From NCBI GenBank assembly GCA_025464975.1, contig JAODMT010000004.1:62001-126000 (forward strand): a DNA stretch of 64,000 nt, read 5' to 3'. The position numbers and the translations under genes are program-made. Numbering within the stretch: the first letter of the stretch is position 1; each line of letters starts with the position of its first letter. The notes under the pieces are model-generated. The model had not been told where the DNA came from. It was given only the letters and a program-made list of their open reading frames with translations, and did not search any database. Below are positions 1,672-27,088 of this stretch, piece by piece. This DNA is from Microbacteriaceae bacterium (GTDB lineage Bacteria > Actinomycetota > Actinomycetes > Actinomycetales > Microbacteriaceae).

Positions 1672-1679
1672 GAGCGCAC

Positions 1680-2045
1680 ATGACTATGAATTCGAATCGA
1701 TCGTCCGCCGGCCTCTGGGCGACCATGATCATCGCCGTGGTGTTCGGCCTCGTCTTCGCCTTCTACCTCTACGAAGCGATCTCCCAGGCAATCTCTCTCG
1801 CGCAGTACGTGGCCGTGCAAAATCCGGTGCTGAAGCGGGTCGGCCACGCGCTTTTGAGCTTCCCATGGCTCGTGATCGGCGCCTACGTCGTCTTGCCGAT
1901 CGTCACCTTCGTGCTTGCCGTGGTGATCGGACGCCGCCGCACCGTTCCGATCAGGGTCGGCATTTTTGTGCTCGCCCTCGCCGCGCTCTCCGCCGCCAGT
2001 CTTACGCTCGAGTCGATCGCGAGCGCGGCAACCCGCATCAACTGA
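1680..2045 (+). CDS. Small three-helix membrane protein, unknown function
   Basis: 121 residues from the ATG at 1680, which has GGAG just upstream; the longer upstream frame would overlap the preceding gene and has no hydrophobic start. Three predicted membrane segments cover about residues 12-40, 58-85 and 95-115. It probably forms a two-gene unit with the preceding membrane protein, with which it shares size and topology. No family could be named with confidence. Confidence 0.7.
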   Translation: MTMNSNRSSAGLWATMIIAVVFGLVFAFYLYEAISQAISLAQYVAVQNPVLKRVGHALLSFPWLVIGAYVVLPIVTFVLAVVIGRRRTVPIRVGIFVLALAALSAASLTLESIASAATRIN

Positions 2046-2164
2046 GCCACGACAGGCGGCGCTCAGGTGCCTCACGGCAAGACTCAATCCCGCGGTGAGA
2101 TAAAGTTCAAGGGCCGAGGGCCGTAGGCCGCGGACCTCCCCACCCTGACAAAAGGACTCGATTC

Positions 2165-3754
2165 GTGGCAAAGCCGATCGTGCTGATCGCCGAAGAACTT
2201 TCTCCCGCTACCGTCGAGGCCCTTGGTCCCGACTTCGACGTGCGCACCGTCGATGGCACCGACCGGCCGGCGCTGCTCACCGCCCTCGCCGACGCGAGCG
2301 CGGTGCTGATCCGCTCCGCCACTCAGGTCGACGCGGAGGCCATCGCCGCGGCCAAGAACCTCAAGGTGATCGCCCGGGCCGGAGTCGGTCTCGATAACGT
2401 CGACATCAAATCCGCGACCGAGGCCGGGGTCATGGTCGTCAACGCGCCGACCTCGAACATCATTTCCGCCGCGGAGCTGACCGTCGGCCACATCCTGAGT
2501 CTCGCCCGGCACATCCCGGCTGCGCACGGTGCGCTCGCCGATGGGCAGTGGAAGCGCTCGAAGTACACCGGCGTCGAGCTGTTCGAAAAGACGATCGGCA
2601 TCATCGGCCTCGGACGCATCGGCGCTCTGATCACCGCCCGAATGCAGGCGTTCGGCACCAACATCGTCGCCTACGACCCCTACGTGACCGCGGCACGCGC
2701 CCAGCAGCTCGGTGTGACGCTGCTCCCGCTCGACGAGGTTCTCGCACAGTCGGACTTCGTGACGATCCACATGCCGAAGACGCCGGAGACCACCGGAATG
2801 ATCGGCGACGCCCAGTTCGCCCTGATGAAGCCGACCGCGTTCATCGTCAACGTGGCGCGCGGCGGCCTGATCGACGAGGATGCCCTCTACCGTGCCCTCA
2901 GCGCCGGCACGATCGCGGGCGCCGGACTGGATGTCTTCGTGAGCGAGCCACCGGCGGCCTCGCCGCTGCTCGCCCTTCCGAACATCGTCGTCACCCCGCA
3001 CCTCGGAGCATCGACCGACGAGGCTCAGGAGAAGGCGGGGGTGTCGGTCGCCCGATCCGTGCGACTCGCGCTCGGCGGCGAACTCGTGCCGGATGCCGTC
3101 AACGTCGCCGGGGGAGTCATCAACCCGACCGTGCGCCCCGGCATCCCGCTCATGGAGAAGCTCGGCCAGGTCTTTGCCGGTCTTGCCACGGGCCCGGTCA
3201 CGTCGATCGACGTGGAAATCCGCGGGGAGATCGTGGAGTTCGACGTGAGCGTATTGAAGCTCGCGGCGCTCAAGGGCATCTTCACCAACGTGGTGAGCGA
3301 ATCGGTCAGCTATGTGAACGCGCCGCTGCTCGCCGAGCAGCGCGGCATCCCCGTGCGGTTGTCGACGGATGCCGAGAGTGACGAGTACCGCAACCTGCTC
3401 ACGATCCGCGGAGTGTTGAGCGATGGCACGAAGATCTCCGTCTCCGGCACCCTCACCGGCCCGAAGCAGGCGCAGAAGATCGTCGAGATCAACGGCTACG
3501 ACGTCGAGGTTCCGATGGCGGAGCACCTGATCGTCATGGTGTACACCGACCGTCCCGGCATTGTCGGCGTCTACGGCCGGGAATTCGGCGACGCGGGGAT
3601 CAACATCGCGGGCATGCAGATCAGCCGCCGCGAGGCCGGCGGTCAGGCTCTCAGCGTGCTGACCGTCGACTCACCGGTGCCCGAGGGGCTTCTCGACAGC
3701 GTGCGCGTTGCGATCAAGGCCGACCTCCTGCGCGATATCGACATCACCGAGTAG
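2165..3754 (+). CDS. serA: D-3-phosphoglycerate dehydrogenase
   Basis: Catalyses the first step of serine synthesis, NAD-dependent oxidation of 3-phosphoglycerate to 3-phosphohydroxypyruvate. The 529 residues fit the long actinobacterial form. In order: N-terminal substrate domain with ARAGVGLDNVD, a Rossmann fold with GIIGLGRIG near residue 145, the NVARGGLIDEDAL segment, the catalytic histidine in PHLGAST, an intervening (ASB) domain, and a C-terminal ACT domain (LIVMVYTDRPGIVGVYG) that usually gives serine feedback control. The start is the GTG at 2165. Serine synthesis next to leuB-ilvE-gltX is a common actinobacterial order, although here an EamA/MarR-PhzF pair lies between them. Confidence 0.97.
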   Translation: MAKPIVLIAEELSPATVEALGPDFDVRTVDGTDRPALLTALADASAVLIRSATQVDAEAIAAAKNLKVIARAGVGLDNVDIKSATEAGVMVVNAPTSNIISAAELTVGHILSLARHIPAAHGALADGQWKRSKYTGVELFEKTIGIIGLGRIGALITARMQAFGTNIVAYDPYVTAARAQQLGVTLLPLDEVLAQSDFVTIHMPKTPETTGMIGDAQFALMKPTAFIVNVARGGLIDEDALYRALSAGTIAGAGLDVFVSEPPAASPLLALPNIVVTPHLGASTDEAQEKAGVSVARSVRLALGGELVPDAVNVAGGVINPTVRPGIPLMEKLGQVFAGLATGPVTSIDVEIRGEIVEFDVSVLKLAALKGIFTNVVSESVSYVNAPLLAEQRGIPVRLSTDAESDEYRNLLTIRGVLSDGTKISVSGTLTGPKQAQKIVEINGYDVEVPMAEHLIVMVYTDRPGIVGVYGREFGDAGINIAGMQISRREAGGQALSVLTVDSPVPEGLLDSVRVAIKADLLRDIDITE

Positions 3755-13974: not shown

Positions 13975-15252
13975 CTATTGGCGACCGAGGGGTCTCATGT
14001 CTGAGCCGTCGGGTCGCGTGTGGTACTGAATGCCGCGTGGCGAGAGTACCTGTTCTATCGCGGAGATCATGCCACCAATCAGGCCGGCCTCGTCGCCAAG
14101 TTCAGTGTGCATGATCGAGAGGTTGCGCGTGGCAAGCGGCTGCGCCTGCTGGTACACCACGCTCCGAATCTGGGCGAGCATGTCGTCCGTGCATGCCGCG
14201 ACCTCGCCCCCAATGACTATGCGGGCCGGGTTGCAGAAGTTGACCAGGTCGGCGATCGCGCCGCCCAACATGGCGGCGATTTCGCGAACGATGCTGACCG
14301 TCGTAGCGTCGCCACGCATCAGCCGATCGATGAGTTCGCGCGAGGTAACCTCGGCGCCGATGGCCTTTGACACGCTTGAGGCCATCGCTCCGACAGAGGC
14401 GACCGCCGAGAGACAGCCGCGATTGCCGCACGCGCAAAGCGAATTGGAGGATTCGCTAACGCGCATATGACCGATGTCCGCCGCGGCGCCGTCCGCCCCG
14501 TGCAACAAAAGGCCGCTCTCGCTGACGAACCCGGCGCCAACGCCAACTCCGACTCCGACAAGCAAGAGCGGAAGGTCTTTGTCGCCGAGAGCCCGTGCCT
14601 CGGCCAGCGCTTTCAGATTGACGTCATTGTCGACTATGGCGTCGCAGTTGAAACGGCCGGCCATGAATGTGCACGCTTCGAAGCCATCCCAGCCGGGCAT
14701 TAGGGGCGGGCGCACGACGATGCCCTTGTGGGAGTCGACGGGGCCCGGTATCCCAACGGAAATCGCGAGCGCACGATCGCGCGGAATCCCGAGCTCAACC
14801 ATCATCTCTTCGAACCCGGACGCGATCGCCTCGCTGACAACCTGCGGACCCTTGTCGACGTGCACATCGAGGGTCCTCTGCTCGAGAACTGTCTTCCCGA
14901 GATCGGTGATGGCGATTCGCGAACGGTCCACGGCCATATCGGCGACGAGAACAACGCCCCGGTGCGGGTTTATCTTGAATACCTGAGCAGGCCTGCCGCG
15001 CTGCGTGGCGGCCCCGATTCCGGCATCTTCGATCAACCCCGCGTGCAGCAAGACTTGCAGGTGGCTGTCGATGGTAGATCGCGCCAGCCCGGTGGCTGCC
15101 ACGATTTCCCTGCGGCTGACCTCGCGGCCGTTCGCGATCATGCGTGCGATGGTGCTGCGCGCCGCATGCGCGCTTGGAGCCAGGTTCTGATCCGGCACGA
15201 GGAGCTGAACTTCTGTCCAAAAGGATCCCATGCGTAGACAATACACGCGCAA
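13975..15252 (-). CDS. ROK-family transcriptional regulator
   Basis: 425 residues: an N-terminal winged helix-turn-helix (SRREIVAATGLARSTIDSHL, about residues 45-65) followed by a ROK sugar-kinase-like domain with DNDVNLKALAEA and the zinc-binding CACGNRGCLSAVAS segment. Regulators of this NagC/XylR type usually repress sugar genes and release DNA on binding the sugar or its derivative. It is divergent from the sugar ABC operon with only 53 bp between, so it very probably controls that operon. The frame opens with TTG at 15252; an ATG at 15231 is a likely alternative. Confidence 0.92.
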   Translation of the reverse strand: MRVYCLRMGSFWTEVQLLVPDQNLAPSAHAARSTIARMIANGREVSRREIVAATGLARSTIDSHLQVLLHAGLIEDAGIGAATQRGRPAQVFKINPHRGVVLVADMAVDRSRIAITDLGKTVLEQRTLDVHVDKGPQVVSEAIASGFEEMMVELGIPRDRALAISVGIPGPVDSHKGIVVRPPLMPGWDGFEACTFMAGRFNCDAIVDNDVNLKALAEARALGDKDLPLLLVGVGVGVGAGFVSESGLLLHGADGAAADIGHMRVSESSNSLCACGNRGCLSAVASVGAMASSVSKAIGAEVTSRELIDRLMRGDATTVSIVREIAAMLGGAIADLVNFCNPARIVIGGEVAACTDDMLAQIRSVVYQQAQPLATRNLSIMHTELGDEAGLIGGMISAIEQVLSPRGIQYHTRPDGSDMRPLGRQ

Positions 15253-15305
15253 TTCGAGCCGATATATGTTGAAAACAAATTAAATCGGGCCATTTCTTTT
15301 TACAT

Positions 15306-16871
15306 GTGGACATATTTATAGTGATCCGCATGAACCAACGAGGATTCGTAGACAGGCCTGCCCCCGCAGCGGAGGTGGCGAGGTCGCAGTCGTCGCCCCG
15401 CCTCGAGGTCCGCGGCCTCTCGAAGAGCTTCCTTGGCGCCAATGCCTTGGAGGATGTGAGCTTCAGCGTGGCGCCAGGCCAGGTGCTTGCGCTGATCGGC
15501 GAGAACGGCGCCGGAAAATCCACGCTTATCCGCATCCTCTCCGGAGCGCACCGCCCAGACGCGGGCGAGGTCTGGATCAACGGCTCCCGCGTCGAGATCG
15601 GGGGGCCGAAGGCCGCGGAAGATCTGGGCATCGCGACGGTCTATCAGGAGCTCAGCCTCTTCCCGGACCTGTCAGTGGCGGAAAATCTGGTATTCGGCCA
15701 GTTCCCCGGCAAAGGTGTCATCAACTGGCGCACGGCTCAGGAAGAGGCATCCCGGTTCCTTCATGGCCTTGGCTTGCACGTCGATGCAACCAGCAAGGTG
15801 CGAGACCTGAGCATCGCCGAAAAGCAGATGCTGGAGATCGCGAAGGCGCTTCACCGGCGCGCCGAGATCGTGATTTTGGATGAGCCGACTGCCGTTCTCG
15901 GCGGGGAAGACGTCGACCATCTGCTGCGGCTGGTGCGCGGCCTCAAGGAGCGAGGCGTCAGCGTCATCTTTGTGTCGCATCGGCTCGAGGAGGTCTTCGG
16001 GTTGGCCGACCGCTACGTCGTCCTCAAGGACGGGAAGCTCACCGGTCTGGGCGACATCGCGGATACAAACCACGATGATCTCGTTTCGAAGATGGTCGGG
16101 CGCAACTTCTCGCGGTCGCACCGTTCCGTGAATCGTCGCGTTGGAGACGTCGTCCTCGATGTGCGCAACCTGTCGCGGGAGGGCGTGCTTCGAAACATTT
16201 CTTTGTCAGTGCGCTCGGGAGAAGTGCTCGGTATCGCAGGCCTGCGAGGAGCGGGGCGCACCGAACTTGCGCGCGCCATCTTCGGTGTCGACCCGATAAC
16301 GAGTGGAGAAGTGAGCCTTCACGGCTCCAAGCTCGCGACCAAAGACCCGCTTCAGTCGATTCGGGCCGGCATCGGCCTGGTTCCCGAGGAACGCAAGACG
16401 CAGGGCATCTTCATCGCCCTTTCCACGGCGGCGAACATCCCGATCGTGAGCATGCTGAAGCGGGGAGCACGCTGGGTTCGGCCTGCCGCTGAGCGTCAGC
16501 TCGCGCTCGACTATGTCAAGAAGCTTCGCATCAAGGTTGCCAATGTTTCGTCGCCCGTTGCGTCGCTGTCGGGAGGGAACCAGCAGAAGGTCGTCCTCGC
16601 CAAATGGTTGAACGCCGGCGTGGACGTGCTGATTCTCGACGAACCCACCCGGGGTATCGACATCGGGGCCAAGCAGGAAATCTACGAACTCATCCACTCC
16701 CTGTGTGAACAGGGCCTCGCCATCCTCCTGATCTCTTCTGAGCTTCCCGAGGTACTGGCGCTCAGCCATCGCATCCTCGTCATGCACCACGGTGAAGTTG
16801 CCGCCGTGCTCGACGGAGATACCGCAACCGAGGAACTGGTCATGTTCCACGCCGTTGGAGGAAAGAACTAA
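15306..16871 (+). CDS. Sugar ABC transporter ATPase (RbsA/MglA type, two ABC domains)
   Basis: 521 residues with tandem ABC modules, as in ribose/xylose/galactose importers. Module 1: Walker A GENGAGKST, Walker B IVILDEPTAVLG. Module 2: LSGGNQQKVVLAKWL and Walker B VLILDEPTRGIDIG; its Walker A position reads GLRGAGRTE, degenerate as is usual for the second half of this family. Module 1's signature position reads LSIAEKQM, also normal for RbsA. The start is either GTG 15306 or ATG 15330. The permease overlaps its stop codon. First gene of the operon divergent from the ROK regulator. Confidence 0.93.
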   Translation: MDIFIVIRMNQRGFVDRPAPAAEVARSQSSPRLEVRGLSKSFLGANALEDVSFSVAPGQVLALIGENGAGKSTLIRILSGAHRPDAGEVWINGSRVEIGGPKAAEDLGIATVYQELSLFPDLSVAENLVFGQFPGKGVINWRTAQEEASRFLHGLGLHVDATSKVRDLSIAEKQMLEIAKALHRRAEIVILDEPTAVLGGEDVDHLLRLVRGLKERGVSVIFVSHRLEEVFGLADRYVVLKDGKLTGLGDIADTNHDDLVSKMVGRNFSRSHRSVNRRVGDVVLDVRNLSREGVLRNISLSVRSGEVLGIAGLRGAGRTELARAIFGVDPITSGEVSLHGSKLATKDPLQSIRAGIGLVPEERKTQGIFIALSTAANIPIVSMLKRGARWVRPAAERQLALDYVKKLRIKVANVSSPVASLSGGNQQKVVLAKWLNAGVDVLILDEPTRGIDIGAKQEIYELIHSLCEQGLAILLISSELPEVLALSHRILVMHHGEVAAVLDGDTATEELVMFHAVGGKN

Positions 16872-17932
16872 TGTCATCGCTCGCTACAACCAAGAGGCAA
16901 AGCGCCCTGGGACGACGTCTCCGGAACAACTGGATTACCATCCTCATATTCCTCGTCGTGGTCGCCGCAGTTTTACTGTTTGTCCCCGCGTTCTTTCAGC
17001 CGGCGAACCTGATCAACGTCGCGCGTCAATCCTCAATCATCGGGGTCGTCGCGATCGGGATGACCTTCGTCATCCTCACCGGCGGCATCGACCTTTCGGT
17101 CGGTTCGACCCTCGCGCTCTCCGGCGTAACAATGGCAATGCTGATCAACTCTGGCCTCGACTCGACAGTGGCGATTATCATCTCGCTCCTCACCGGAGTC
17201 GTGGCCGGCCTCATTAACGGAATCGGCGTCGCAATCCTGAAGATTCAGCCCTTCATCGTCACGCTGGCAACGATGGTGTCGATCCTGGGTATCTCCCTTC
17301 GCGTGACCAACGGTGGGCCTCAGGCCTTCGACAACTCGGGTGATATCTTCAACTTCCTGGGCAGTGGCGACGTATTTGGCCTCCCGGGCCCGTTCCTAGT
17401 CTTTCTCATCGTTGCGGCCATCGGTGTTCTGACCCTGCGCTATTTTTCCTTTGGTCGCTACCTCTACGCCATCGGCGGCAGCTCCGAGGCAGCCCGGCTT
17501 TCGGGCGTCCCGACAAAGAAGATGCTTGTCGCGGCGTACGCGATCTGCGGGCTTGCGGCAGGTCTCGCCGGAGTCATGACGGCATCCCGGCTTAGCGTTG
17601 GTGGCCCGACGGCAGGAGGCTTGGCTAATCTCGACGCTATTACCGCAGTCGTGATAGGCGGCACCAGCCTCATGGGCGGCACCGGAGGTGCGATCGGCAC
17701 AGTCTTCGGCGCCCTGCTCCTCGCTGTCCTATCGAACCTCATGAACCTCATGGGAATTGGGCCGTTCGACCAGCAGATCGTCAAAGGCGCCGTCATCATC
17801 CTTGCTGTGCTGTTTGCCATGCAGGCCACGAGGAAGAGGATCTCCGACCGTCGGGGTGCAGCGAAGGCCTTGCCTAGTTCGGCAGAGAACGCTACAGCAG
17901 ACCCGAATGCCACCCCCGGCGTTCCGCAGTAG
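16871..17932 (+). CDS. Sugar ABC transporter permease (RbsC type)
   Basis: 353 residues with about nine or ten hydrophobic segments, the BPD_transp_2 family. Typical landmarks: GMTFVILTGGIDLSVGS near residue 70, a conserved GRYLYAIGGSSEAARLSGV loop contacting the ATPase, and GGTSLMGGTGGAIGTVFGA. The ATG at 16871 overlaps the TAA of the ATPase gene (TAATG), so translation is coupled. The polar C-terminal tail is cytoplasmic. Confidence 0.93.
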   Translation: MSSLATTKRQSALGRRLRNNWITILIFLVVVAAVLLFVPAFFQPANLINVARQSSIIGVVAIGMTFVILTGGIDLSVGSTLALSGVTMAMLINSGLDSTVAIIISLLTGVVAGLINGIGVAILKIQPFIVTLATMVSILGISLRVTNGGPQAFDNSGDIFNFLGSGDVFGLPGPFLVFLIVAAIGVLTLRYFSFGRYLYAIGGSSEAARLSGVPTKKMLVAAYAICGLAAGLAGVMTASRLSVGGPTAGGLANLDAITAVVIGGTSLMGGTGGAIGTVFGALLLAVLSNLMNLMGIGPFDQQIVKGAVIILAVLFAMQATRKRISDRRGAAKALPSSAENATADPNATPGVPQ

Positions 17933-17963
17933 TGCAGCTACACCCTCACCAATCCGCTGAGAA

Positions 17964-19046
17964 TTGAAAGTTGGAAAGATGTATATAACGAAAAAGAGGC
18001 TGACATCGTGGTCAGCAGCTGTGGTCGTCGCCGCAGCGCTGACCCTCGCAGCAGCCGGATGCTCCGCGTCGAGCACCGGCGCCAAATCCACCCCCCTCGA
18101 AGTCGGAGACAAACCGGCCCCCAGCCTTTACTGCAGCTCCACTTGCCAGTCGCAGCTCGTCCTGAAGGCGGCTCCCGCTTCGGTAAAGTGCTCCATCGGC
18201 GTGTCGTGGAGCGCGACTTCGTTCCCATATGGGGCCACTTCATCGAAGCAGATCCCGGAGCTGGCTAAGAAGTGGTTCCCCGGAATGCAGGTCACAGTTA
18301 CTGATGGCCAGAACGACGCCTCGATCCAGTCGGGCCAAGTTGATCAGCTGGTGGCTCAGGGTATCAAGGTCCTCATCATCTCCTCGCGTGACTCCGACGC
18401 GCTCAAGGGCGCTGTCGACCGTGCCCTAAAGGCCGGAGTTAGGGTCATCGCCGCGGACCGCAACGTGAACACGACCGTGGACACCTACATCGGTTCCGAC
18501 AATGGCGAAGCCGGTGTCGTCAGCGGGCAGAACATAGCCAAGGTTCTGGGCTCAAGTGGCAAGATCGTCGAACTCGCGGGCAGCCTGGGTGCTTCGCCGA
18601 CGATCGCCCGCGGTGACGGGCTCCGCACGGGGCTCAAGGGCTCGAGCGTGAAGATTGTTACAACGCAGACCGCGGATTACGACCAGGCAAAGGGTCTCTC
18701 GGTCATGCAGGACCTGCTGCAAAAGTACCAGCCCGGCTCGATCAACGGCGTCTACACCCACAACGACCAGATGGCCTTCGGCGCTATCCAGGCACTCAAG
18801 GAAGCCGGTCGCGACAAGGAGATCAAGGTTTTCAGCATCGACGGAGAAGAGAAGGCTCTCGCTGACATCAAGAACGGCTCGATGGAGGCGACCGTCGGCT
18901 ACCCGATCGTGACAAAGGAGTCGGTGATCGCCGCAGCGAAGCTCTGCTCTGGTGAGACCGTCGACAAGCGCATCAAGCTCGACTCCACTCTGATCACCAA
19001 GCAGAACGTTGCGAAGTACGTCGGGAAGAGCCCTCAGGACGAGTAA
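17964..19046 (+). CDS. Sugar ABC transporter substrate-binding lipoprotein
   Basis: 360 residues. A signal peptide ends in a lipobox (LTLAAAGC), so the mature protein should be lipid-anchored outside the membrane. The rest is a type I periplasmic-binding fold like RbsB, with VDQLVAQGIKVLIISSRDSDAL, VIAADRNVN, IGSDNGEAGVVSG and YTHNDQMAFGAIQALKEAG. The N-terminal stretch after the lipid cysteine carries three further cysteines (LYCSSTC ... VKCSIG), unusual for this family. Starts possible at TTG 17964 or ATG 17979. The ligand is not deducible; the neighbours point to a sugar, glycoside or cyclitol. Confidence 0.92.
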   Translation: MKVGKMYITKKRLTSWSAAVVVAAALTLAAAGCSASSTGAKSTPLEVGDKPAPSLYCSSTCQSQLVLKAAPASVKCSIGVSWSATSFPYGATSSKQIPELAKKWFPGMQVTVTDGQNDASIQSGQVDQLVAQGIKVLIISSRDSDALKGAVDRALKAGVRVIAADRNVNTTVDTYIGSDNGEAGVVSGQNIAKVLGSSGKIVELAGSLGASPTIARGDGLRTGLKGSSVKIVTTQTADYDQAKGLSVMQDLLQKYQPGSINGVYTHNDQMAFGAIQALKEAGRDKEIKVFSIDGEEKALADIKNGSMEATVGYPIVTKESVIAAAKLCSGETVDKRIKLDSTLITKQNVAKYVGKSPQDE

Positions 19047-19130
19047 CTCGAACCGCATCCAGAAATGACGCGAGGAGGGGCTGGGATATCGGCCCAGCTC
19101 CTCCTCCTCCACAAACAAAGGACTAAGTAC

Positions 19131-20000
19131 ATGAGAATCTCTTACAACACCTGGGCCTATTCGAGCTTCTTCGTGTGGGTTCCTGCATACACGCTCGACG
19201 AGACAATCAAGCGCATCGCGGGGCTCGGCTACGACGGGATCGAAATCGGCGCGGCGGCCCCTCACGCTTACCCGCCCCACCTCAGTGCCGACCGTCGCGT
19301 GCAGGTCCGCGATCTGCTGCAGGAGCACAACCTCGCGCTTTCGAGCATGCTGCCCGCTCCATCCGGGGGCCCCGGCAACAACCCGGCGTCGCCCAACATC
19401 GAGGAACGTCGTGCGACCGTGGAGCACTACAAGGAGCTCGCCGACCTCACCGCCTTCTGGGGTGGCAAGACCCTCATATACCTGCCCGGCTGGATCATCT
19501 TCGGCACGACCCGCCGTCAGGCATGGGCCTGGAGTCGTGAGGTCCTCACGGAGGTCGCCGACGCGATCGCGCACACCGGTGTTACCCTCGTCATCGAGCC
19601 CACATCGCACGACACGAACCTCTGCATGTCGGCCGATGATGCCATCGAACTCATGCAGGACGTCGACCGCCCGAACGTGAAGCTGATGTTCGACACCTTC
19701 CACGTTCTGTACAGCAAAGAAGTCATGAGCGACTATCCCTACAAGATGGGCGCGGACCTCAAGCACATCCACATTTCGGACAACGATCGTCTCCCTCCAG
19801 GTTCGGGCGTGGGGGACTTCCCGTCGCTCATCGACTCGCTCATCGAGAACGGCTTCGACGGCTACTTGACGATGGAGACGGGATTCCACCGCCGCGGAAT
19901 CGAACCGGACGAGGACGCCCGTACATCGATCGAGTACCTGCGACCGCTCGTCGAGTCCAAGCTCGCCGAACACGCGGCCAAGAAGTCGAAGGATCAGTAA
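19131..20000 (+). CDS. TIM-barrel sugar isomerase/epimerase
   Basis: 289 residues from the ATG at 19131 with AAAGGA upstream. Xylose-isomerase-like AP-endonuclease-2 fold; the four metal ligands expected for this family can be placed at E156 (VIEPTSHD), D188 (MFDTFHV), H214 (HIHISD) and E249 (METGF). Members include tagatose 3-epimerases, hydroxypyruvate isomerases, inosose isomerases and the eliminases or deglycosidases that act on 3-keto glycosides. It overlaps the following gene by one base (TAATG), which ties it to the oxidoreductase pair. The exact reaction is not known. Confidence 0.88.
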   Translation: MRISYNTWAYSSFFVWVPAYTLDETIKRIAGLGYDGIEIGAAAPHAYPPHLSADRRVQVRDLLQEHNLALSSMLPAPSGGPGNNPASPNIEERRATVEHYKELADLTAFWGGKTLIYLPGWIIFGTTRRQAWAWSREVLTEVADAIAHTGVTLVIEPTSHDTNLCMSADDAIELMQDVDRPNVKLMFDTFHVLYSKEVMSDYPYKMGADLKHIHISDNDRLPPGSGVGDFPSLIDSLIENGFDGYLTMETGFHRRGIEPDEDARTSIEYLRPLVESKLAEHAAKKSKDQ

Positions 20001-20548
20001 TGTCAGGGTCTGCTTCTTCCGAAGACTCGGCTCTCCTCTTCCTTAACCGAACCGAGGCACGCGCGGTGGCCGCTTTCACTTCTGAGCTCATCCCATCAGA
20101 AGAAGGGTCGCCCGGTGCGGTGGAGGCAGGAGTAACCACCTACATAGATCGGGCGCTGGCAGGTTTCATGCGGGATCTGCAACCGGTCTATCGGCGTGGG
20201 CTTGAGGCACTAGCGGACCTCGCCGCGGAGCGCTTCGGGTGTTCGTTCGGCGAGGCGACGAGCGCACAAAAGCGGCATCTCATTGCCGAATTGGACGACC
20301 TGGGAAGAAATGAACCCGCCAATTTCCTCGGGCAGTTCTTTCGCATCGTGCGCGAGCACACCATCCAGGGGTTCTTCGGCGATCCTGCCTATGGCGGCAA
20401 TCGGGACACTGTCGGCTGGAAGCTGGTTGGCTTCCCCGGCGCCCAGTGGGGCTATACATCCGAGCAGATGCAACGGGGCGTTGATTCCAGGACGTTCCCG
20501 ATCCTCACCGTGAAGGACCTTTACGCACGAATTGGAGAGGCGAAGTGA
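20000..20548 (+). CDS. Gluconate 2-dehydrogenase subunit 3 family protein
   Basis: 182 residues resembling the small (gamma) subunit that accompanies membrane or periplasmic GMC dehydrogenases: FLNRTEARAVAAFTSELIPSEE at the start, YIDRALAGF, and GFFGDPAYGGNRDTVGWKLVGFPG near the end. In characterised systems this subunit assists folding or export of the flavoprotein and has a Tat signal. No twin-arginine or hydrophobic signal is present here, which suggests a cytoplasmic complex. It is coupled by overlap to genes on both sides. Confidence 0.88.
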   Translation: MSGSASSEDSALLFLNRTEARAVAAFTSELIPSEEGSPGAVEAGVTTYIDRALAGFMRDLQPVYRRGLEALADLAAERFGCSFGEATSAQKRHLIAELDDLGRNEPANFLGQFFRIVREHTIQGFFGDPAYGGNRDTVGWKLVGFPGAQWGYTSEQMQRGVDSRTFPILTVKDLYARIGEAK

Positions 20549-22278
20549 TCGAGAAGTTCGACGCCATCGTCGTGGGCATGGGTTCTTCGGGGGGCATCGT
20601 CGCCGAACAGCTCACAAAGTCGGGAGCCAGGGTGCTTGGTCTCGAGAAGGGTCCGGAGTACTCCCAAGAGGACTTCGAAGTCAAAGCCGACGAACTCCGT
20701 TACTACCAGCGCGGCGCCATAGTCGCGGGCGTTGCGGTGGATCCCGTGACATGGCGGCCCGACGAGAAGACTCAGGCCCGTGTGCTTCCCTGGTCGGCGG
20801 GTGCCCTCGGGACCGACGAGCCCCTGTATGGTCTTCCGTCGATCGGCACCGGTGGTGGGACCCTTCACTGGGGTGCGGCGGCGTACCGATTCCGGGAGGC
20901 CGACTTTCGGATGAAGTCTGCCATCGCCGAGCGGTTCGGCCACGGCGCTCTTCCTGAAGGCTCCACTCTCGCCGACTGGCCAATCTCTTACGCCGACCTC
21001 GAACCGTACTACGAGAAAGTTGAGCACCAACAGGGTTATTCAGGGCGCGCAGGAAACGTCGACGGCGAATTCCCCGAGGGGACCAACCCATTCGATGTGT
21101 GGAGGCGCAGTGACTATCCGATGCCCCCAGTCACGCAGGGCCCCGGGGACCTGCCCTGGGTGGAGGCGACAAAACGGCTGGGCTATCACCCGTTCCGTCA
21201 ACCGCTCGCTATCAACTCGCAGGAGTACAAGGGCCGTCCTGCGTGCGTGAACTGCGGCTTCTGCCACGGCTTCCCGTGCCATGTGAAGGCGAAGTCCACG
21301 ACGCAAGTCACGTCCATACCTGCGGCGAAGGCAACCGGAAACCTCGACCTTCGGGCTAACAGCCGCGTTCTGCGCGTGAACCGTTCCGCAGATGGTCGCC
21401 GTGTCACTGGGGTTACGTATGTGGATTCGGCCGACCAGATCCACGAGGTCGAGGCGGAGATCGTTGTCCTTGCGGCGTATGCGCTTGAGAACGTGCGCCT
21501 AATGCTGGTGTCGGGAATTAACAAGAACGGCCAGGTCGGCCAGCACTTCCAGACGCACAATTTCGGCTGGTTCGGGTCAATCCTTCCGGAAGCGACGAAT
21601 CCGTTCATCGGCACGTTCAACGCCTCGAGCGCCATCGACGACTTCACATCCGAATTGGTGCCGGACAATGATCTCGGGGTTCTCTGGGGCTCCCCGATTA
21701 TTAGCGTGACAGGCGACCTGCAGCCGATCGAGGCTTACCACAACATGAACCCGTCGGTTCAAAAGTGGGGCCTGGAACTCAAGCACTGGCTGCGGGACAA
21801 CTACCGCCACATGCACCGCATGTACTCCCAGACGACCAACTTCCCTTACGCGCGGCACTATGTCGACCTGGACCCGTCGGTCAAGGATCGATGGGGCCAG
21901 CCGGCGATTCGCATCACTCACGAGTGGGAGGATCACGACGCGAACTCGGTGAGCCTGATGGGGCGGTACAAGGAGAAGATCGCGCGCGAAATGGGCGCGA
22001 CCGAGTTCTGGATGGATTCGCCGCGACCGCCGTACCACCTCTCCACGCATGACGTAGGAGTCCACCGAATGGGCCTCGACCCTGCGACGTCCGTCACGGA
22101 TCCGTTCGGTCACGTGCACGAATGCGACGGACTCTACGCGGTTGGGGGCGGCGGATTCGTCAGCTACGGGGGTTATAACCCGAACGAGACGATCCAGGCC
22201 CTCGCCTACATGAGTGCTGGACACCTGATCGAGAATCTCGGCTCAACCGCAGGACGAAGCCAGGCCCATGTCGCGTGA
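20545..22278 (+). CDS. GMC-family FAD oxidoreductase with cysteine cluster (glycoside 3-dehydrogenase-like)
   Basis: 577 residues from the GTG at 20545, overlapping the small subunit by 4 bp. The FAD site is VVGMGSSGGIVAEQL with LGLEKG; the C-terminal GMC domain has HDVGVHRMGLDP and GYNPNETIQALAYMSAGHL. Four closely spaced cysteines (C234, C237, C240, C245 in CVNCGFCHGFPC) match the region that binds a 3Fe-4S cluster in FAD glucose dehydrogenase and glucoside 3-dehydrogenase. Together with the subunit-3 partner, this favours oxidation of a sugar or glycoside hydroxyl with electrons leaving through the cluster. No signal peptide is visible. Substrate and acceptor are unproven. Confidence 0.88.
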   Translation: MIEKFDAIVVGMGSSGGIVAEQLTKSGARVLGLEKGPEYSQEDFEVKADELRYYQRGAIVAGVAVDPVTWRPDEKTQARVLPWSAGALGTDEPLYGLPSIGTGGGTLHWGAAAYRFREADFRMKSAIAERFGHGALPEGSTLADWPISYADLEPYYEKVEHQQGYSGRAGNVDGEFPEGTNPFDVWRRSDYPMPPVTQGPGDLPWVEATKRLGYHPFRQPLAINSQEYKGRPACVNCGFCHGFPCHVKAKSTTQVTSIPAAKATGNLDLRANSRVLRVNRSADGRRVTGVTYVDSADQIHEVEAEIVVLAAYALENVRLMLVSGINKNGQVGQHFQTHNFGWFGSILPEATNPFIGTFNASSAIDDFTSELVPDNDLGVLWGSPIISVTGDLQPIEAYHNMNPSVQKWGLELKHWLRDNYRHMHRMYSQTTNFPYARHYVDLDPSVKDRWGQPAIRITHEWEDHDANSVSLMGRYKEKIAREMGATEFWMDSPRPPYHLSTHDVGVHRMGLDPATSVTDPFGHVHECDGLYAVGGGGFVSYGGYNPNETIQALAYMSAGHLIENLGSTAGRSQAHVA

Positions 22279-23104
22279 AAGTGCGGTGGATGAGTCGTTC
22301 GCTAGCCGTGTCGCGTTCATCACCGGCGCCGGACGCGGCCAGGGGCGAAGCCACGCGCTGCGACTGGCTGAGCTCGGAGCCGATGTGGCGCTCGTCGATC
22401 TCGGCTCCGTGGGCAGCGTATCTTCGCCGACCTACGCCACCGCGACCCGCGATGAACTGAACTCGGTCGCCGACGAGGTTCGTGGCCTCGGACGACGCGC
22501 ACTCGTCGTAGAGGCGGACGTACGGTCGGCAGAACAAATGGTGGACGCTGCCGCCAGCGCGGTCCGCGAACTTGGCCAGATCGATTACGTGGTAGCTAAC
22601 GCGGGCATCACCGACGGCTTCGCGCCGACGTGGGAGCTCGCGCCCGAGAACTGGCAGACGATGATCGACATCAACCTGACCGGTGTCTTCCACACGGTTC
22701 GTGCCGCAATCCCGCACCTGCTGGTCGAGCCAGCCGGTCGCGGGCTCGTGCTGATCGGATCGGGCGTGGCGATCAAAGCAGTTCCAAATCTCAGCCACTA
22801 CGTGGCGGCCAAGTATGGAGTACGCGGTCTCGCCGCCGCGCTGGCTGCCGAGCTCGGCCCATACGGAATTCGTTGCAATAGTGTCCACCCGGCTGGCATC
22901 AACACCGAGATGACGACCGCGATGGTCGAGCTCAACGGAATTCCGCGCGAGGAGTTGCTCGAGCGGTTCCGGAGCGGACAGCTGCTCCAGATGAACGTCG
23001 AGATCTCAGACATCACGGCTGCCGTCGTGTGGCTGCTATCCGACGAAGCGCGGTTCGTCACCGGGGTCGAACTCACCGTCGATGCCGGCGAATCCAAGAA
23101 GTGA
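22268..23104 (+). CDS. Short-chain dehydrogenase, mycofactocin-coupled type
   Basis: 278 residues, overlapping the GMC gene by 11 bp. The nucleotide motif is GAGRGQGRSHALRLAELGAD, and an insertion after beta-2 (SVSSPTYATATRDELNSVAD) precedes GRRALVVEADVRS. Both features mark the SDR subgroup whose tightly held NAD(H) is recycled by mycofactocin. Catalytic residues are S165, Y178 and K182 (SHYVAAKYG). It likely oxidises an alcohol in the same pathway as the GMC enzyme. The mycofactocin biosynthesis genes are not in this window. Confidence 0.88.
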   Translation: MSRESAVDESFASRVAFITGAGRGQGRSHALRLAELGADVALVDLGSVGSVSSPTYATATRDELNSVADEVRGLGRRALVVEADVRSAEQMVDAAASAVRELGQIDYVVANAGITDGFAPTWELAPENWQTMIDINLTGVFHTVRAAIPHLLVEPAGRGLVLIGSGVAIKAVPNLSHYVAAKYGVRGLAAALAAELGPYGIRCNSVHPAGINTEMTTAMVELNGIPREELLERFRSGQLLQMNVEISDITAAVVWLLSDEARFVTGVELTVDAGESKK

Positions 23105-23143
23105 CCTTCCGCCTCACCAATTAGCTACGAAAGGCCCCCTGAA

Positions 23144-24337
23144 ATGACTTCAGAACGTGTTCTCCGTGTCGGTATCGTCGGGCTCGAATTCGGCGCCGAA
23201 TTCATCCCGATTTACCAGCGTCACCCGAATGCCGAAATGTACGCCATCTGCCAGCGCACCGAGTCGAAACTCAACGAAATCGGCGACGCGTACGGAATCG
23301 ACGTCCGTTACACCGAATATGAAAAGATGCTCGCCGACCCGAACATCGACGTCATTCACATCAACACGCCCCTGCAGCTTCACGCAGATCAAGTCGTAGC
23401 GGCGCTCGAGGCTGGGAAGCACGTGGGATGCACGATCCCGATGGCTACCTCAGTCGAAGACTGCCGCCGCATCGTCGAAGCCCAGCAGAAGTCCGGGCTC
23501 ACGTACATGATGATGGAGACGACGCTTTATACGCGGGAGTTTCTTTTCGTCCAGGATCTCTACAGGTCGGGCAAGCTCGGCAAAGTGCAGTTCCTGCGCG
23601 CATCGCACCACCAGGACATGACGGGATGGCCGTCGTACTGGGATGGCATGCCGCCGATGCACAACGCAACGCATGCAATCGGCCCGATTCTGGGGCTTAC
23701 AGACCACCAAGCGGAATCAGTGCAGTGCCTCGGTTCCGGCAGCGTATTCGACGCGATGAAGGGGCAGTACGGATCGCCATTCGCGGTGGAGTCGACCCAC
23801 ATCCGCTTCCTCGATAGCGACGTTGGTGCCGAGGTCACACGCCACCTGTGGGCGGTCGCGCGGCAGTACCGTGAGAGTTTCGACGTGTACGGGGCGATCC
23901 GCTCGTTCGAGTGGTCGCAGACCGAGTCAGGAAAGCACAAGATCTTCTTGGGCGAAGGCGTGCACGACGTCGAGATCCCCGACTTCGCATCGCGGCTGCC
24001 GGTCGAGATCCAGTCGTTCACGCGGGCTGGCGTATATGGCGGGGGCGAGGGGTCCGAGAGTCACCGGTCGTTCGTCCAGGGCGGCGGCCACGGCGGGTCC
24101 CACCCGCACCTGGCGCACCACTTGCTGATGGCGGCACTCGGTGAGGAGGAGGCCTACCCCAACGCCGTACAGGCGGCAAACATCACGTGCTCCGGGATAC
24201 TCTCCCACGAGTCGGCGCTCAAAGGCGGGGCGTTGATTCACCTGCCCGAGTGGACGCTATCGGACAAAAAGCCGTGCCTCATCGAGCTCGACCAGGACAC
24301 GCAGCCGGCGTGGGCCAACGAGACCGCCTTCCTGTAG
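23144..24337 (+). CDS. Gfo/Idh/MocA-family oxidoreductase with altered active-site motif
   Basis: 397 residues from the ATG at 23144, with GAAAGG upstream. N-terminal Rossmann fold (VGIVGLEFGAEF) and a C-terminal alpha/beta domain, as in sugar and inositol dehydrogenases. The usual EKP motif that supplies the catalytic lysine is replaced: GKHVGCTIPMATSVEDC instead of a CEKP sequence. It is the last intact gene of the sugar operon and is followed two bases later by the start of a decayed aldo/keto reductase. It probably acts on an oxidised sugar, perhaps with non-redox or altered chemistry. Confidence 0.88.
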   Translation: MTSERVLRVGIVGLEFGAEFIPIYQRHPNAEMYAICQRTESKLNEIGDAYGIDVRYTEYEKMLADPNIDVIHINTPLQLHADQVVAALEAGKHVGCTIPMATSVEDCRRIVEAQQKSGLTYMMMETTLYTREFLFVQDLYRSGKLGKVQFLRASHHQDMTGWPSYWDGMPPMHNATHAIGPILGLTDHQAESVQCLGSGSVFDAMKGQYGSPFAVESTHIRFLDSDVGAEVTRHLWAVARQYRESFDVYGAIRSFEWSQTESGKHKIFLGEGVHDVEIPDFASRLPVEIQSFTRAGVYGGGEGSESHRSFVQGGGHGGSHPHLAHHLLMAALGEEEAYPNAVQAANITCSGILSHESALKGGALIHLPEWTLSDKKPCLIELDQDTQPAWANETAFL

Positions 24338-24339
24338 AC

Positions 24340-24640
24340 ATGGCGGAGCTCAATGACTTGGTCCGGGCCGGATGTCGGCTTCGGAACATATCCACCCGTA
24401 GGGCGCAAATGCGGAGCAGGCGACCATATTCGCGCTTGAGATGGGGTACCGGTTGATCGACACGGCCGCGAGCTAAGGCAACGAGGGAGCCGTCGGCGTC
24501 GCGTTTGCCCGATCATCCGTGTCGAATATGTGGACGTGTGCCTGACGCATTGGCCGAATCCGCGCGTCGACAAGTACGTTGATTCATCGCGGGCGATGAT
24601 CAGCAGCCTGGCGCGCCCCAACGGCCGCTGGTTGGACGGA
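24340..24640 (+). pseudogene. Aldo/keto reductase remnant
   Basis: Pieces of one aldo/keto reductase survive in order but in different frames: an ATG at 24340 (MAELND), then PDVGFGTYPPVG (from 24368), then ALEMGYRLIDTAAS followed by a TAA at 24474 where the family has tyrosine and then GNEGAVGVA, then VEYVDVCLTHWPNPRVDKYVD (24521-24583). These match the family's GFGTY, GYRxIDTAxxYGNE and YVDLYLIHWP motifs. Frameshifts, a stop, an internal deletion and loss of the C-terminal half make it non-functional. It was evidently once the last gene of the sugar operon. Confidence 0.85.
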
Positions 24641-24682
24641 GACCCGGAACGTCCTGAGCAGCCACGATCTACTCCATTCCCA

Positions 24683-25687
24683 CTAGTCCGACGAAACGGA
24701 TGTGCGCCCCATCGTGTCCGACGGTTGTTCGGAAAAGCGGTGTCGGTAGCTAGCGGCGAATCGCCCGAAGTGGCTGATTCCCCATTTCGCGGCGACCTCG
24801 GTCACGGTCACCGAACCCGGTTCGGCATCAGAAAGCTCCTTGTGTATCTGCTCCAGGCGCAACTGACGGAGGTACGTCATTGGAGTGGTGCTCATCGATC
24901 TGCGAAACCCTTCCTGGAGGCTGCGCACACTGACACCGACATCGCCCGCCAGCTCGGAGACCGTCCACCCGTGCTCCGGGCTGTCCCTGAGCAATTCCAC
25001 CGCTTGCGCTACGGGACGGGTTCCGGCAGAGGCAGCGGTGGTGGAGCTGAGGGCCGCAGAGTGGTTATGTGGTTGAGCAAGCAGGAGGGACTCCATCAGC
25101 ACTTGTTCAAGGCGCTGCGCGGCGAGCGGATGTTGGAGCAGCCCGCCTTCGTTCTTCGACGCCAGATCGATGAGATGGAGTATCTGAAGCACCGTGCAGC
25201 CTGGTCCCGTCGTCAGGTCCAGTTCGGCGGAAAACACAAGCGGTTTGACGACGCTGCGGCCGAGGAGATTTTCCAGTTCCAGCTGCAATTCCGCGCGAGG
25301 AACCATCACCGACACCTGTGCAAAATCCTTATCGCAATCCAGAACGGCGGGGTGGCCGGGCACGAACACGGCGGCAGTCCGCGGTGTTCCATAGACGGGC
25401 TTGTGCATGCCAGCACGCATCGTGGCTCTGCCCGTCAACGGTATGTCGACGTGGTAGTCGGTGGCTTCACTCGTGCGGATCCGAACGGCGTCGCCGAATC
25501 GCAGGTAGCCTGCCGTCACTCGCCCCACCTTGATGACGTTAAGGCTCAGATCCAGCGCGGTGGACGGCGAGGCGGAGGCAAAGTCCAGGGGCAGGAATAT
25601 GTCGCTGAGCACTTGGCGTGCGTGGTCGATGTCGCCTGACGATGCGACCGGGTGACTCCGGAACATCTCACTGGTGACTAATGGCAC
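24683..25687 (-). CDS. AraC-family transcriptional regulator
   Basis: 334 residues. The N-terminal ~200 residues form a cupin-like ligand/dimer domain of the AraC_binding_2 type (VDIPLTGRATM, FVPGHPAVLDC). The C-terminal ~110 residues carry the double helix-turn-helix: WTVSELAGDVGVSVRSLQEGFRR, then TVTEVAAKWGISHFGRFAASYRHRF. The gene faces the 3' end of the sugar operon across the aldo/keto reductase remnant and may regulate that operon or a lost gene; its own targets are unknown. Confidence 0.9.
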   Translation of the reverse strand: MPLVTSEMFRSHPVASSGDIDHARQVLSDIFLPLDFASASPSTALDLSLNVIKVGRVTAGYLRFGDAVRIRTSEATDYHVDIPLTGRATMRAGMHKPVYGTPRTAAVFVPGHPAVLDCDKDFAQVSVMVPRAELQLELENLLGRSVVKPLVFSAELDLTTGPGCTVLQILHLIDLASKNEGGLLQHPLAAQRLEQVLMESLLLAQPHNHSAALSSTTAASAGTRPVAQAVELLRDSPEHGWTVSELAGDVGVSVRSLQEGFRRSMSTTPMTYLRQLRLEQIHKELSDAEPGSVTVTEVAAKWGISHFGRFAASYRHRFSEQPSDTMGRTSVSSD

Positions 25688-25855
25688 CCCGAGATTATAG
25701 TTCTGCCGTCTGTGCCTGGTTCGGGTACGGCGTGGATCACACTCCCGCGCAAAGTGGATGTTCGTCCGCGTTGGCCGGATTTCGCGCTGGGCAACGTCAA
25801 TCTACCTTTGATACATCTGCAGCAGACGGCTGCCGTTTGTGACTTCGGGGATTCG

Positions 25856-27088
25856 ATGGGAAACGTGCCTCGATGGATCAGCGCCCCAGTGCTGCGGGCG
25901 TGGGTAGCCTCGAAGGCGGGCGAGGTCAATCGACTCCCGCGGCCCCGTGACGCACCGGAATCGCACTCGATTGGATTCAACAGCGATCGCGTGCTCATCT
26001 TCGGTGGAGACCCCGCGGTCGGATGGGGCGTCCTCAGCCATGAGATCGCTCTTCCGGGGAGTCTTGGCCGCGCACTGTCGCGCCGCACGGGTCGCGGGGC
26101 GGATGTCCACGTCGCCGCCATTCCGCGACTGAAGGTCAGCTCAGCCGCTGATGAGCTGAGCAGGATCAAGCTACATCGATATGACGCGCTAGTCGTCACC
26201 CTGGGCTTGAACGACGCCGGAGCTCTCACATCACTAGCGACCTGGCGACGTGACCTGACCAGCACGCTGCGCGTCATAGCCCGGCAGTCATCGCCGGTCT
26301 CGCGGATCTTCGTGGCCGGCGTGCATCCAATTCGTTCGATCCCGGTCTACAACAGCCCGTTGGGTTCGATTGCAGACGCACACGCCCGAAAGATGAACAC
26401 CATCTCCGCGGAGGTCTGCACCCTGGCGCCACGTGCGACGTATGTCTCGTTGACCGCTCCGGAGGAACGCAGCGCCCTCCGGTTCCGCGACGCGATGTCC
26501 TACCGGCACTGGGGCGAGGAGCTGGCCGAGCGCATGGCACCCCAACTGAATGCCGAACGCCTGCTCGTCGATTTCGACCGGACACTGACGAGTGACGAGG
26601 GCGCTGCTGCCGAGGCGGACAGGGCAGCGGCTGTGATGGAGCTCGGAATTCTCCGCGACGATCGAACCTGGCAATTCGACGACGTCGTTGCCCAGGCGCG
26701 CACCACGTTCGGCGTGCGATCGGCCACTGTGAGCGTCATCGATTCCGACCGCCTCGTCCATAAGGCACAGATAGGAGACGTGCCCCAGCTGATCACGCTC
26801 CGCGATTCTTTCACTGCCTCGGTCATTCGTGAACGGGAGGGCATGATGGTGCCCGACGCGTGTGCGGATTCCCGATTCCGGAATCTGCCACACGTCGCCG
26901 GCGAACCCCGCATCCGCTTCTACGCCGGATTCCCCGTGGAGAGCCCCGACGGAAACCGTATCGGCACCCTGAACATCTTCGACCCGACGCCACAGTTCTC
27001 CTATGACTCCTGGGGCTTACCCCTTCTCCGCCAGTTCGGTCTCATGGCGCAGGCAGAGGTGCGTCGGGGCGCGGATGGCGGGCACTGA
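25856..27088 (+). CDS. SGNH-like protein fused to a GAF domain, serine motif lost
   Basis: 410 residues from the ATG at 25856, chosen because it gives the same ~45-residue lead before the first beta strand as the paralogue at 27.3-28.0 kb; a GTG at 25712 is possible. Residues ~45-245 follow an SGNH/GDSL hydrolase fold (RVLIFGGDPAVGWGVLSHEI, VTLGLNDAGALTS), but the nucleophilic serine of GDS is absent. Residues ~260-400 are a GAF domain (DACADSRFRNLPHVAGEP, IRFYAGFPVESPDG, IGTLNIFD). It may be a sensor rather than an enzyme. No DNA-binding or output domain follows the GAF. Confidence 0.8.
   Translation: MGNVPRWISAPVLRAWVASKAGEVNRLPRPRDAPESHSIGFNSDRVLIFGGDPAVGWGVLSHEIALPGSLGRALSRRTGRGADVHVAAIPRLKVSSAADELSRIKLHRYDALVVTLGLNDAGALTSLATWRRDLTSTLRVIARQSSPVSRIFVAGVHPIRSIPVYNSPLGSIADAHARKMNTISAEVCTLAPRATYVSLTAPEERSALRFRDAMSYRHWGEELAERMAPQLNAERLLVDFDRTLTSDEGAAAEADRAAAVMELGILRDDRTWQFDDVVAQARTTFGVRSATVSVIDSDRLVHKAQIGDVPQLITLRDSFTASVIREREGMMVPDACADSRFRNLPHVAGEPRIRFYAGFPVESPDGNRIGTLNIFDPTPQFSYDSWGLPLLRQFGLMAQAEVRRGADGGH

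Follow-up and report, generated by a model that had tools for sequence, protein, structure and literature searches.

A conserved candidate sugar-catabolic operon of Actinomycetota that combines a ribose-type importer with a predicted Fe-S GMC dehydrogenase

Flavoenzymes such as fructose dehydrogenase (FDH) and FAD-dependent glucose dehydrogenase (FAD-GDH) have a partner protein, subunit 3, which usually carries a twin-arginine translocation (Tat) signal, and a cytochrome c subunit is a further usual partner in systems of this type. The glycoside dehydrogenase GlycDH of Agrobacterium tumefaciens is presumably, like them, a GMC protein, and in the Ycj pathway of Escherichia coli oxidation is carried out by NAD enzymes. 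The A. tumefaciens operon encodes a flavoenzyme glycoside 3-dehydrogenase, a Gfo oxidoreductase and two TIM proteins, which together perform oxidation, elimination, hydration and reduction, and a TAT-pathway signal protein is named beside GlycDH in the methods (PMC10628242). The levoglucosan pathway, LgdA-B1-B2-C, likewise comprises a dehydrogenase, TIM-type isomerase-like proteins and an ATP-binding cassette (ABC) importer, present also in actinobacteria (PMC7676230, PMC10066097). Here we consider a 64,000-nucleotide stretch of DNA, referred to as the window, from a Microbacteriaceae bacterium (GenBank assembly GCA_025464975.1, contig JAODMT010000004.1, positions 62,001-126,000, forward strand). 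It carries what is most likely a ROK-regulated sugar catabolic operon, in which a ribose-type ABC importer is followed by a TIM-barrel protein, a subunit 3, a GMC dehydrogenase predicted to be of the iron-sulphur (Fe-S) type, a short-chain dehydrogenase/reductase (SDR) and a Gfo/Idh-like protein.

The gene set and its order are real, and conserved beyond chance. When 84,980 species genomes were scanned by pattern and tblastn with the GMC protein as the query, 21 loci were found, of which 15 (L032-L046, from 14 species) had 70-83% GMC identity and six had 27-34%; L044, a second scaffold of the species that contributed L043 and with the same layout, was left out of the alignments and further searches. 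Subunit 3 adjoins the GMC gene in 14 of the 15 loci, the remaining one (L041) starting inside the GMC gene; the TIM barrel precedes this pair in 12/15, and the three genes are retained with a divergent ROK orthologue in 12/15. In 11 of the 15 the genes of the ABC importer separate ROK from TIM; in L032 an importer of another kind (30-38% identity) is encoded beyond ROK, away from the rest of the operon. A Gfo gene is found downstream in 13/15 loci, the contigs of L043 and L044 stopping approximately 800 bases past the GMC gene, with no TIM gene upstream in either. The genera given for these loci are Naasia, Microcella, Microbacterium, Arthrobacter, Sciscionella, Amnibacterium, Nakamurella and Cryobacterium, besides metagenome-assembled genomes (MAGs) labelled only as Actinomycetota or Micrococcaceae. 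Four of these genera were looked up (Naasia, Arthrobacter, Sciscionella and Nakamurella) and represent four families in three orders, so that the loci span at least four actinobacterial families. The order is more than chance because the same neighbours, with identities from 42% (the binding protein of L040) to 89% (the TIM barrel of L045), recur in Microbacteriaceae, Micrococcaceae, Pseudonocardiaceae and Nakamurellaceae. Hence the proposal of an initial annotation, made from the window alone, that these genes form one operon is upheld by its conservation in actinobacterial loci.

The TIM barrel and the Gfo protein both appear to belong to narrow families, as few matches turned up among 396 sampled genomes of the phylum: only two for the TIM barrel besides the window's own (27-28% identity, E 1e-20), and 17 genomes, including the window's own, for the Gfo protein (E 1e-30). 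Copies of the operon on plasmids were considered and ruled out, as none of 72,556 plasmid records matched the Gfo protein at E 1e-50, and the 103 plasmid-borne GMC relatives found at E 1e-60 were all below 60% identity. No recognisable description of the operon was found in the papers searched, among which subscription journals were poorly covered.

Import, cytoplasmic oxidation by an Fe-S flavoenzyme and subsequent isomerisation by a TIM barrel very probably make up the core of the pathway, and these steps are shared by the two leading interpretations of its substrate. In the one that we tentatively prefer, by analogy with known pathways, this is a glycoside oxidised at C3. The ribose-type importer would take up a small glycoside, or an uncommon sugar, intact, and the GMC/subunit-3 pair would oxidise a ring or chain hydroxyl, by analogy that at C3, in the cytoplasm, with electrons leaving through the predicted Fe-S cluster of the pair, perhaps to the quinone pool. 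The TIM barrel, with a divalent metal, would then take the proton beside the new ketone, leading to epimerisation or elimination, and the Gfo-like protein, the SDR or both would finish the conversion through reduction, hydration or a second oxidation, such that the end product would be a common sugar needing no dedicated kinase. In the other, which is possible but the less probable of the two, a rare sugar, polyol or cyclitol would be imported, the Fe-S GMC enzyme would make a ketose or inosose in the manner of sorbitol/fructose-type dehydrogenases, the TIM barrel would act as a ketose 3-epimerase-like isomerase yielding a common intermediate, and a side step would fall to the SDR or the Gfo protein, with no glycosidic bond involved.

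Judged by its sequence, the GMC protein is of the Fe-S fructose/glucose dehydrogenase type, with FDH (E 6.6e-31) and then FAD-GDH as its nearest solved relatives. The four-cysteine cluster (C234-C245) that the initial annotation likened to a known Fe-S GMC site is present in full: FDH has four cysteines in this stretch, and C234, C240 and C245 each align with one of them; we take the three matched cysteines to be among the ligands of its cluster. C237 faces an Asn. H502 aligns with the histidine altered in the PDB entry labelled H1147A, N545 with the Asn that is Ala in 8xcn, and T501 occupies the place of FDH N1146; the four cysteines (C234, C237, C240 and C245), H502 and N545 are invariant in 15/15 aligned GMC sequences. 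The four cysteines could hold a 4Fe-4S rather than a 3Fe-4S cluster. The absence of a Tat signal from subunit 3 also proved general, with no twin arginine in the first 30 residues of 14/14 sequences as aligned. Eight of these begin at a start codon, and the pieces from L036, L037, L039, L040, L042 and L043 begin internally; five of these six have a Met 3-13 residues upstream with no twin arginine after it (read by eye), and in L037 there are 12 open upstream codons without a Met. In L033, L034, L035, L038, L045 and L046 the start used is preceded by a stop at a distance of 0-7 codons, and two Sinorhizobium fredii subunit-3 proteins are likewise without a twin arginine near the start (by eye). 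As no Tat signal is seen on subunit 3, the GMC/subunit-3 pair is probably cytoplasmic, as had been implied. Such pairs are not limited to this operon: a second cluster in the window's genome (L054, G000:C3:48000-68000) holds two further subunit-3/GMC pairs with an IclR regulator, an ABC sugar importer, an SGL lactonase, an isochorismatase-fold gene, an SDR, a PfkB kinase and an AraC regulator 74% identical to that following the operon in the window (24683-25687). The Aurantimonas locus of a 28% GMC relative (L049) was discarded as a clue to the pathway, its two nearest upstream genes being for haem synthesis.

The TIM barrel is nearest, in both sequence and fold, to D-tagatose/D-psicose 3-epimerases, with YcjR, a 3-keto-D-glucoside 4-epimerase, among the lower matches of both kinds, at 21% identity in the fold alignment (AlphaFold model with pLDDT 81.4, compared by Foldseek). 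Most orthologues begin at Met23 of the window's open reading frame (ORF), making approximately 19131 the likely start. E178, D210, H236 and E271, presumably an E-D-H-E metal site, are invariant in the 12 sequences of the TIM alignment (A3, which left out L040, and in which L041 could have no part, having no TIM gene in view) and match ketose 3-epimerase residues in a profile alignment with PDB entries. None of the curated epimerase models was passed by the TIM barrel, with scores of 90.2 bits vs a cut-off of 305 for FrlC, 84.2 vs 300 for IolO and 74.6 vs 300 for psicose epimerase. No second TIM protein was seen: there is one TIM gene in the window's operon and one orthologue in each of 12 loci, although unrelated TIM proteins farther off were not sought everywhere.

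Canonical NAD(P)-dependent Gfo/Idh proteins have a GxG nucleotide loop and a catalytic EKP lysine. All 14 operon members instead have the loop GLEFG, with Glu replacing the middle Gly, and TIP at the EKP place, and hence no lysine there. The loop is altered, and the Glu may affect NAD binding. Among 18 homologues from other genomes the loop is GLGFG in 17 and GMSFG in one, and the nine that were aligned have TVP or TIP at the EKP place (alignment A6, comprising nine of the 14 operon proteins and nine of the 18 outside homologues). The EKP Lys was thus lost long ago, outside homologues being without it as well, and what sets the operon clade apart is the Glu alone, a change that counts as a single event in a single clade rather than as repeated evidence. 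In the other Gfo/Idh proteins of the window's genome, 13/13 have Gly at this loop place and 12/13 keep the Lys. The loop glutamate is a sharp prediction concerning a single residue. No GMC or subunit-3 gene was found in the longer flanks of eight (L080-L087) of the 18 outside homologues. In L084 the order is Gfo, TIM, an unnamed gene, TIM, a Zn-dehydrogenase, TIM and the GLGFG homologue, and L085, spaced alike, adds an FGGY kinase; these two loci, which belong to small genomes from a single family of the phylum, are clusters somewhat like the E. coli ycj cluster, and L087 has ORFs of similar size (only the sizes being compared).

The relatives of the Gfo protein point in two directions. GH109 (2ixa) aligns with it at E149 and GxGHGG, both of which we presume to be catalytic in GH109, through a profile match of low overall similarity. 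The best PDB matches in the profile search were DgpA proteins, which oxidise glycosides at C3 (PMC11239390). The top Foldseek match of its AlphaFold model (pLDDT 85.7) was a scyllo-inositol dehydrogenase with L-glucose dehydrogenase activity, followed lower down by levoglucosan dehydrogenase, NAD-dependent glycoside hydrolases and 2ixa (rank 44, TMq 0.75). Identification as either a levoglucosan or an inositol dehydrogenase was rejected, the NCBIfam scores being far below the cut-offs (64.9 vs 650 for levoglucosan dehydrogenase).

Several features of the locus are consistent with a glycoside as the substrate. Firstly, the gene set and order are conserved, and the GMC protein, resembling FDH and FAD-GDH, retains Cys, His and Asn sites. 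Secondly, there is no Tat signal, YcjR is among the TIM matches, and four residues of metal-binding type are invariant. Thirdly, DgpA, GH109, levoglucosan dehydrogenase and NAD-dependent glycoside hydrolases all occur among the Gfo matches. Fourthly, the published operon of A. tumefaciens is made up of these classes of enzyme and can serve as an analogue (PMC10628242), bearing out the likeness to C3-oxidation pathways that the initial annotation had noticed. Other features weigh against a glycoside or in favour of a rare sugar, polyol or cyclitol. There is a single TIM barrel where the AtOGE and levoglucosan routes employ two, and it scores best with ketose 3-epimerases, YcjR being lower; FDH is the best solved relative of the GMC protein; the importer is of ribose type; and neither activity of the scyllo-inositol/L-glucose dehydrogenase that heads the Gfo fold matches needs a glycoside. 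A plain NAD-dependent reduction in the last step is also doubtful, because the nucleotide loop of the Gfo protein is altered.

A contextual argument for a substrate without a glycosidic bond comes from S. fredii pNGR234b, where a sister GMC gene (55.8% identical) is followed by an SDR, a PfkB kinase, a GatZ/KbaZ-like gene resembling a tagatose-bisphosphate aldolase subunit, and a carbon-nitrogen hydrolase, a neighbourhood which favours a monosaccharide or polyol at that locus. However, the matching NCBIfam epimerase models are far below cut-off in the operon itself, the best sequence matches of the Gfo profile and GH109 are glycoside-processing, and the operon has no sugar kinase. The comparison with the Agrobacterium operon, which agrees in logic but not in details, and the S. 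fredii context therefore leave the C3-oxidised glycoside as the tentative first choice, ahead of the rare sugar, polyol or cyclitol. The initial suggestion of a glycoside or cyclitol is still tentative: the Gfo fold match fits a cyclitol, and the ketose 3-epimerase families nearest to the TIM barrel fit a rare sugar as well. The sister GMC/subunit-3 pair of S. fredii (L107) and that of an actinobacterium (L053) both lie near a carbon-nitrogen hydrolase, and the two hydrolases are 73.7% identical to one another; a pathway acting on a nitrogen-containing sugar or a nitrile glycoside may have been transferred there.

The SDR stands apart from the other genes in being an optional member of the set. 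It lies between GMC and Gfo in nine of the 13 loci where Gfo is visible, and is missing from that place in L032, L036, L037 and L040, the other genes staying. Hence it could be an independent addition to a core of TIM, subunit 3, GMC and Gfo, acting as the dehydrogenase of a second substrate or as a modifier of the aglycone, which would be compatible with either substrate. This is possible but less likely than not, as the position of the SDR between GMC and Gfo is fixed in those nine, and the operon SDRs are 61-68% identical across at least four families. A supposed relocated copy in Naasia lichenicola (292.7 bits) was set aside, being only 42% identical and probably not an orthologue.

The description of this enzyme as a mycofactocin-type SDR agrees with its alignment, with a two-residue gap, through the NAD-covering insertion of carveol dehydrogenase 5ej2, but is too strong as to its family, since it scores 294.4 bits vs the TIGR03971 cut-off of 300. 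The ten operon SDRs span 282.1-302.3 bits, and only two pass (301.4 and 302.3, in L038 and L041). The insertion in such SDRs is described as covering and burying the NAD (PMC5264612), and on this resemblance the operon enzyme is classed with the buried-NAD type. A further, improbable scheme is that of a split oxidative glycosidase. The Gfo-like protein would descend from a GH109-like enzyme that carries out oxidation, elimination, hydration and reduction with a single NAD, and would have lost its nucleotide site through the loop Glu and the missing EKP lysine, with the redox step handed to the cytoplasmic Fe-S flavoprotein; it would now be a redox-free lyase or hydratase. The buried-NAD SDR would be a nicotinoprotein of the mycofactocin type whose recharging does not involve mycofactocin and might be the work of the GMC/subunit-3 pair itself.

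The remaining idea, that the SDR passes electrons to mycofactocin, and the GMC protein, like MftG, reoxidises it, is nearly refuted: in its favour are the near-threshold TIGR03971 score with the NAD-covering insertion, a weak partial match of the GMC protein to MftG (44.6 vs 387.45 bits) and the presence of MftC over cut-off in three of 14 relatives' genomes (L032, L039 and L046), but it was tested with MftC and MftD searches and rejected. In the window's genome neither was over cut-off (47.7 vs 265 bits for MftC, 247.4 vs 470.85 for MftD), so that one of the refuting conditions set by the initial annotation, a genome lacking mycofactocin genes, applies, for that sub-claim only; a mycofactocin electron route is not supported. 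MftD was over cut-off in the same three of 15 genomes, the three mycofactocin-positive genomes scoring 639-690 in these searches, and eight of the ten genomes with an operon SDR were without both MftC and MftD over cut-off. Two of the MftC-positive genomes carry the operon SDR; the third, L032, has MftC yet is among the four of 13 testable operons without it. The search for the MftA peptide gave no signal in any control genome and carries no weight. Missing mft genes could partly reflect incomplete assemblies, the window's genome being 95.8% complete and L041 being a MAG, but six strain genomes (L033, L034, L035, L038, L042 and L045) agree on the absence.

This absence has a consequence beyond the operon. 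The published rule is that TIGR03971 SDRs occur only alongside mycofactocin (PMC5264612, PMC3023750). The SDRs of L038 and L041 pass the family cut-off, neither MftC nor MftD reaches its own in these two genomes, and hence they represent a counter-example to the rule; therefore either another partner recharges such enzymes, or the rule needs revision. Outside the operon, Arthrobacter sp. MA-N2 (L106, G300:C2) has a second TIGR03971 SDR that passes the cut-off (311.4 bits), although neither MftC nor MftD does so in this genome; next to it are genes for an enoyl-CoA-hydratase-like protein and for an ABC importer of sugar type.

Profile searches recovered every gene that the initial annotation had listed, in place and with the expected domains (Table 1). 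ROK is divergent and the other eight of the nine genes are co-directional, although the overlapping stops and starts that had been described apply to only four of the seven junctions (ATPase/permease and TIM/subunit 3 by 1 nt, subunit 3/GMC by 4 nt and GMC/SDR by 11 nt); the others do not overlap, and include permease/binding protein (31 nt) and SDR/Gfo (39 nt). The best NCBIfam sugar-importer models for the ABC ATPase (AraG, xylose, AlsA and RbsA) are all below cut-off. In the gap between ROK and the importer, an AT-rich dyad framed by G/C was aligned in the window and eight relatives, out of 12 loci with ROK, and is a candidate ROK operator only. Its arms were matched by 0-10 of 500 shuffles in six of the nine sequences, three of which are mutual near relatives (L033, L034 and L045) and two of which (L039 and L042) have other letters and spacing; in the window, L036 and L038 the dyad was not significant over the 500 shuffles, and the best dyad of the window sits elsewhere. 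A terminator or sigma-70-like promoter immediately downstream of the operon was looked for and not found. In L036 (Naasia lichenicola), the AraC gene (70% identical) and part of its neighbour, corresponding to window 24683-27088, lie upstream of ROK at 1521-3235, a rearrangement around the same genes, as AraC stands downstream of the operon in the window. Farther along the window, a single ORF (53357-55816) fuses CDP-glycerol glycerophosphotransferase and glycosyltransferase group 1 domains.

Table 1. Features of the operon and its borders, in window coordinates
Feature	Position	Strand	Evidence
ROK-family transcriptional regulator, helix-turn-helix and ROK domains	13975..15252	-	Pfam ROK 158.6 bits, HTH_5 24.8
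Candidate ROK operator, AT-rich G/C-framed dyad, imperfect in the window	15258..15290		Alignment with 8 relatives
Ribose/arabinose-type sugar ABC ATPase, two ABC domains	15306..16871	+	Pfam ABC_tran
Sugar ABC permease	16871..17932	+	BPD_transp_2
Sugar-binding protein, RbsB-like	17964..19046	+	Peripla_BP_4
TIM-barrel ORF, putative isomerase/epimerase/eliminase	19065..20000	+	Pfam AP_endonuc_2
Subunit 3, Gluconate_2-dh3	20000..20548	+	PF13618, 94.8 bits
GMC dehydrogenase, predicted Fe-S type, catalytic subunit	20545..22278	+	Pfam GMC_oxred_N, GMC_oxred_C
SDR resembling the mycofactocin-coupled type, with predicted buried-NAD insertion, optional member	22268..23104	+	TIGR03971, just under cut-off
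Gfo/Idh-like protein, altered nucleotide loop (Glu15), TIP replacing EKP	23144..24337	+	Pfam GFO_IDH_MocA
AraC-type regulator, next gene after the operon	24683..25687	Opposite to operon	

Set beside the described systems, the operon shares parts with each. With FDH and FAD-GDH it has in common the GMC domains, the aligned cysteines, the active-site His and Asn and the subunit-3 partner, whereas it differs in the extra invariant C237, the Thr in place of N1146, the lack of a visible Tat signal and the lack of a cytochrome c subunit, none being found among the ten proteins of 13975-25687 in a Pfam scan. With the TIGR03971 SDRs it shares sequence and the NAD-covering insertion, but the majority of its SDRs are below the cut-off of that family, in genomes that mostly have no MftC and MftD over cut-off. 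The E. coli Ycj proteins (YcjS, YcjR and YcjQ) similarly include a TIM-superfamily 3-keto-glucoside epimerase, clustered with dehydrogenases and an ABC importer (PMC11543891), but the TIM barrel here is distant from YcjR, and no YcjQ-type zinc dehydrogenase was found among the operon genes by Pfam scan. The levoglucosan pathway also joins a dehydrogenase and TIM-type proteins to an ABC importer, but its first oxidation is by LgdA and not by a GMC enzyme, and the operon Gfo protein is, by its score, far from levoglucosan dehydrogenase.

The nearest precedent, by analogy, is the Agrobacterium GlycDH/AtOGE/AtHYD/Gfo operon, likened by gene classes and not by sequences. Both have a flavoenzyme dehydrogenase, a Gfo protein and a TIM protein resembling sugar-phosphate isomerases, and in both oxidation would come first. 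The Agrobacterium operon, however, has two TIM proteins (eliminase and hydratase) and a TAT-signal partner, whereas here there is one TIM protein and no visible Tat signal, and the actinobacterial operon differs further in the altered loop of its Gfo protein and in having an SDR, an ABC importer of ribose type and regulation by a ROK protein. The logic of the two fits, and the details differ. With this operon, flavin-initiated breakdown of sugars or glycosides would extend to Actinomycetota and to a pair of Fe-S enzyme subunits that is fed by an ABC importer and is probably cytoplasmic, as a named gene set open to testing.

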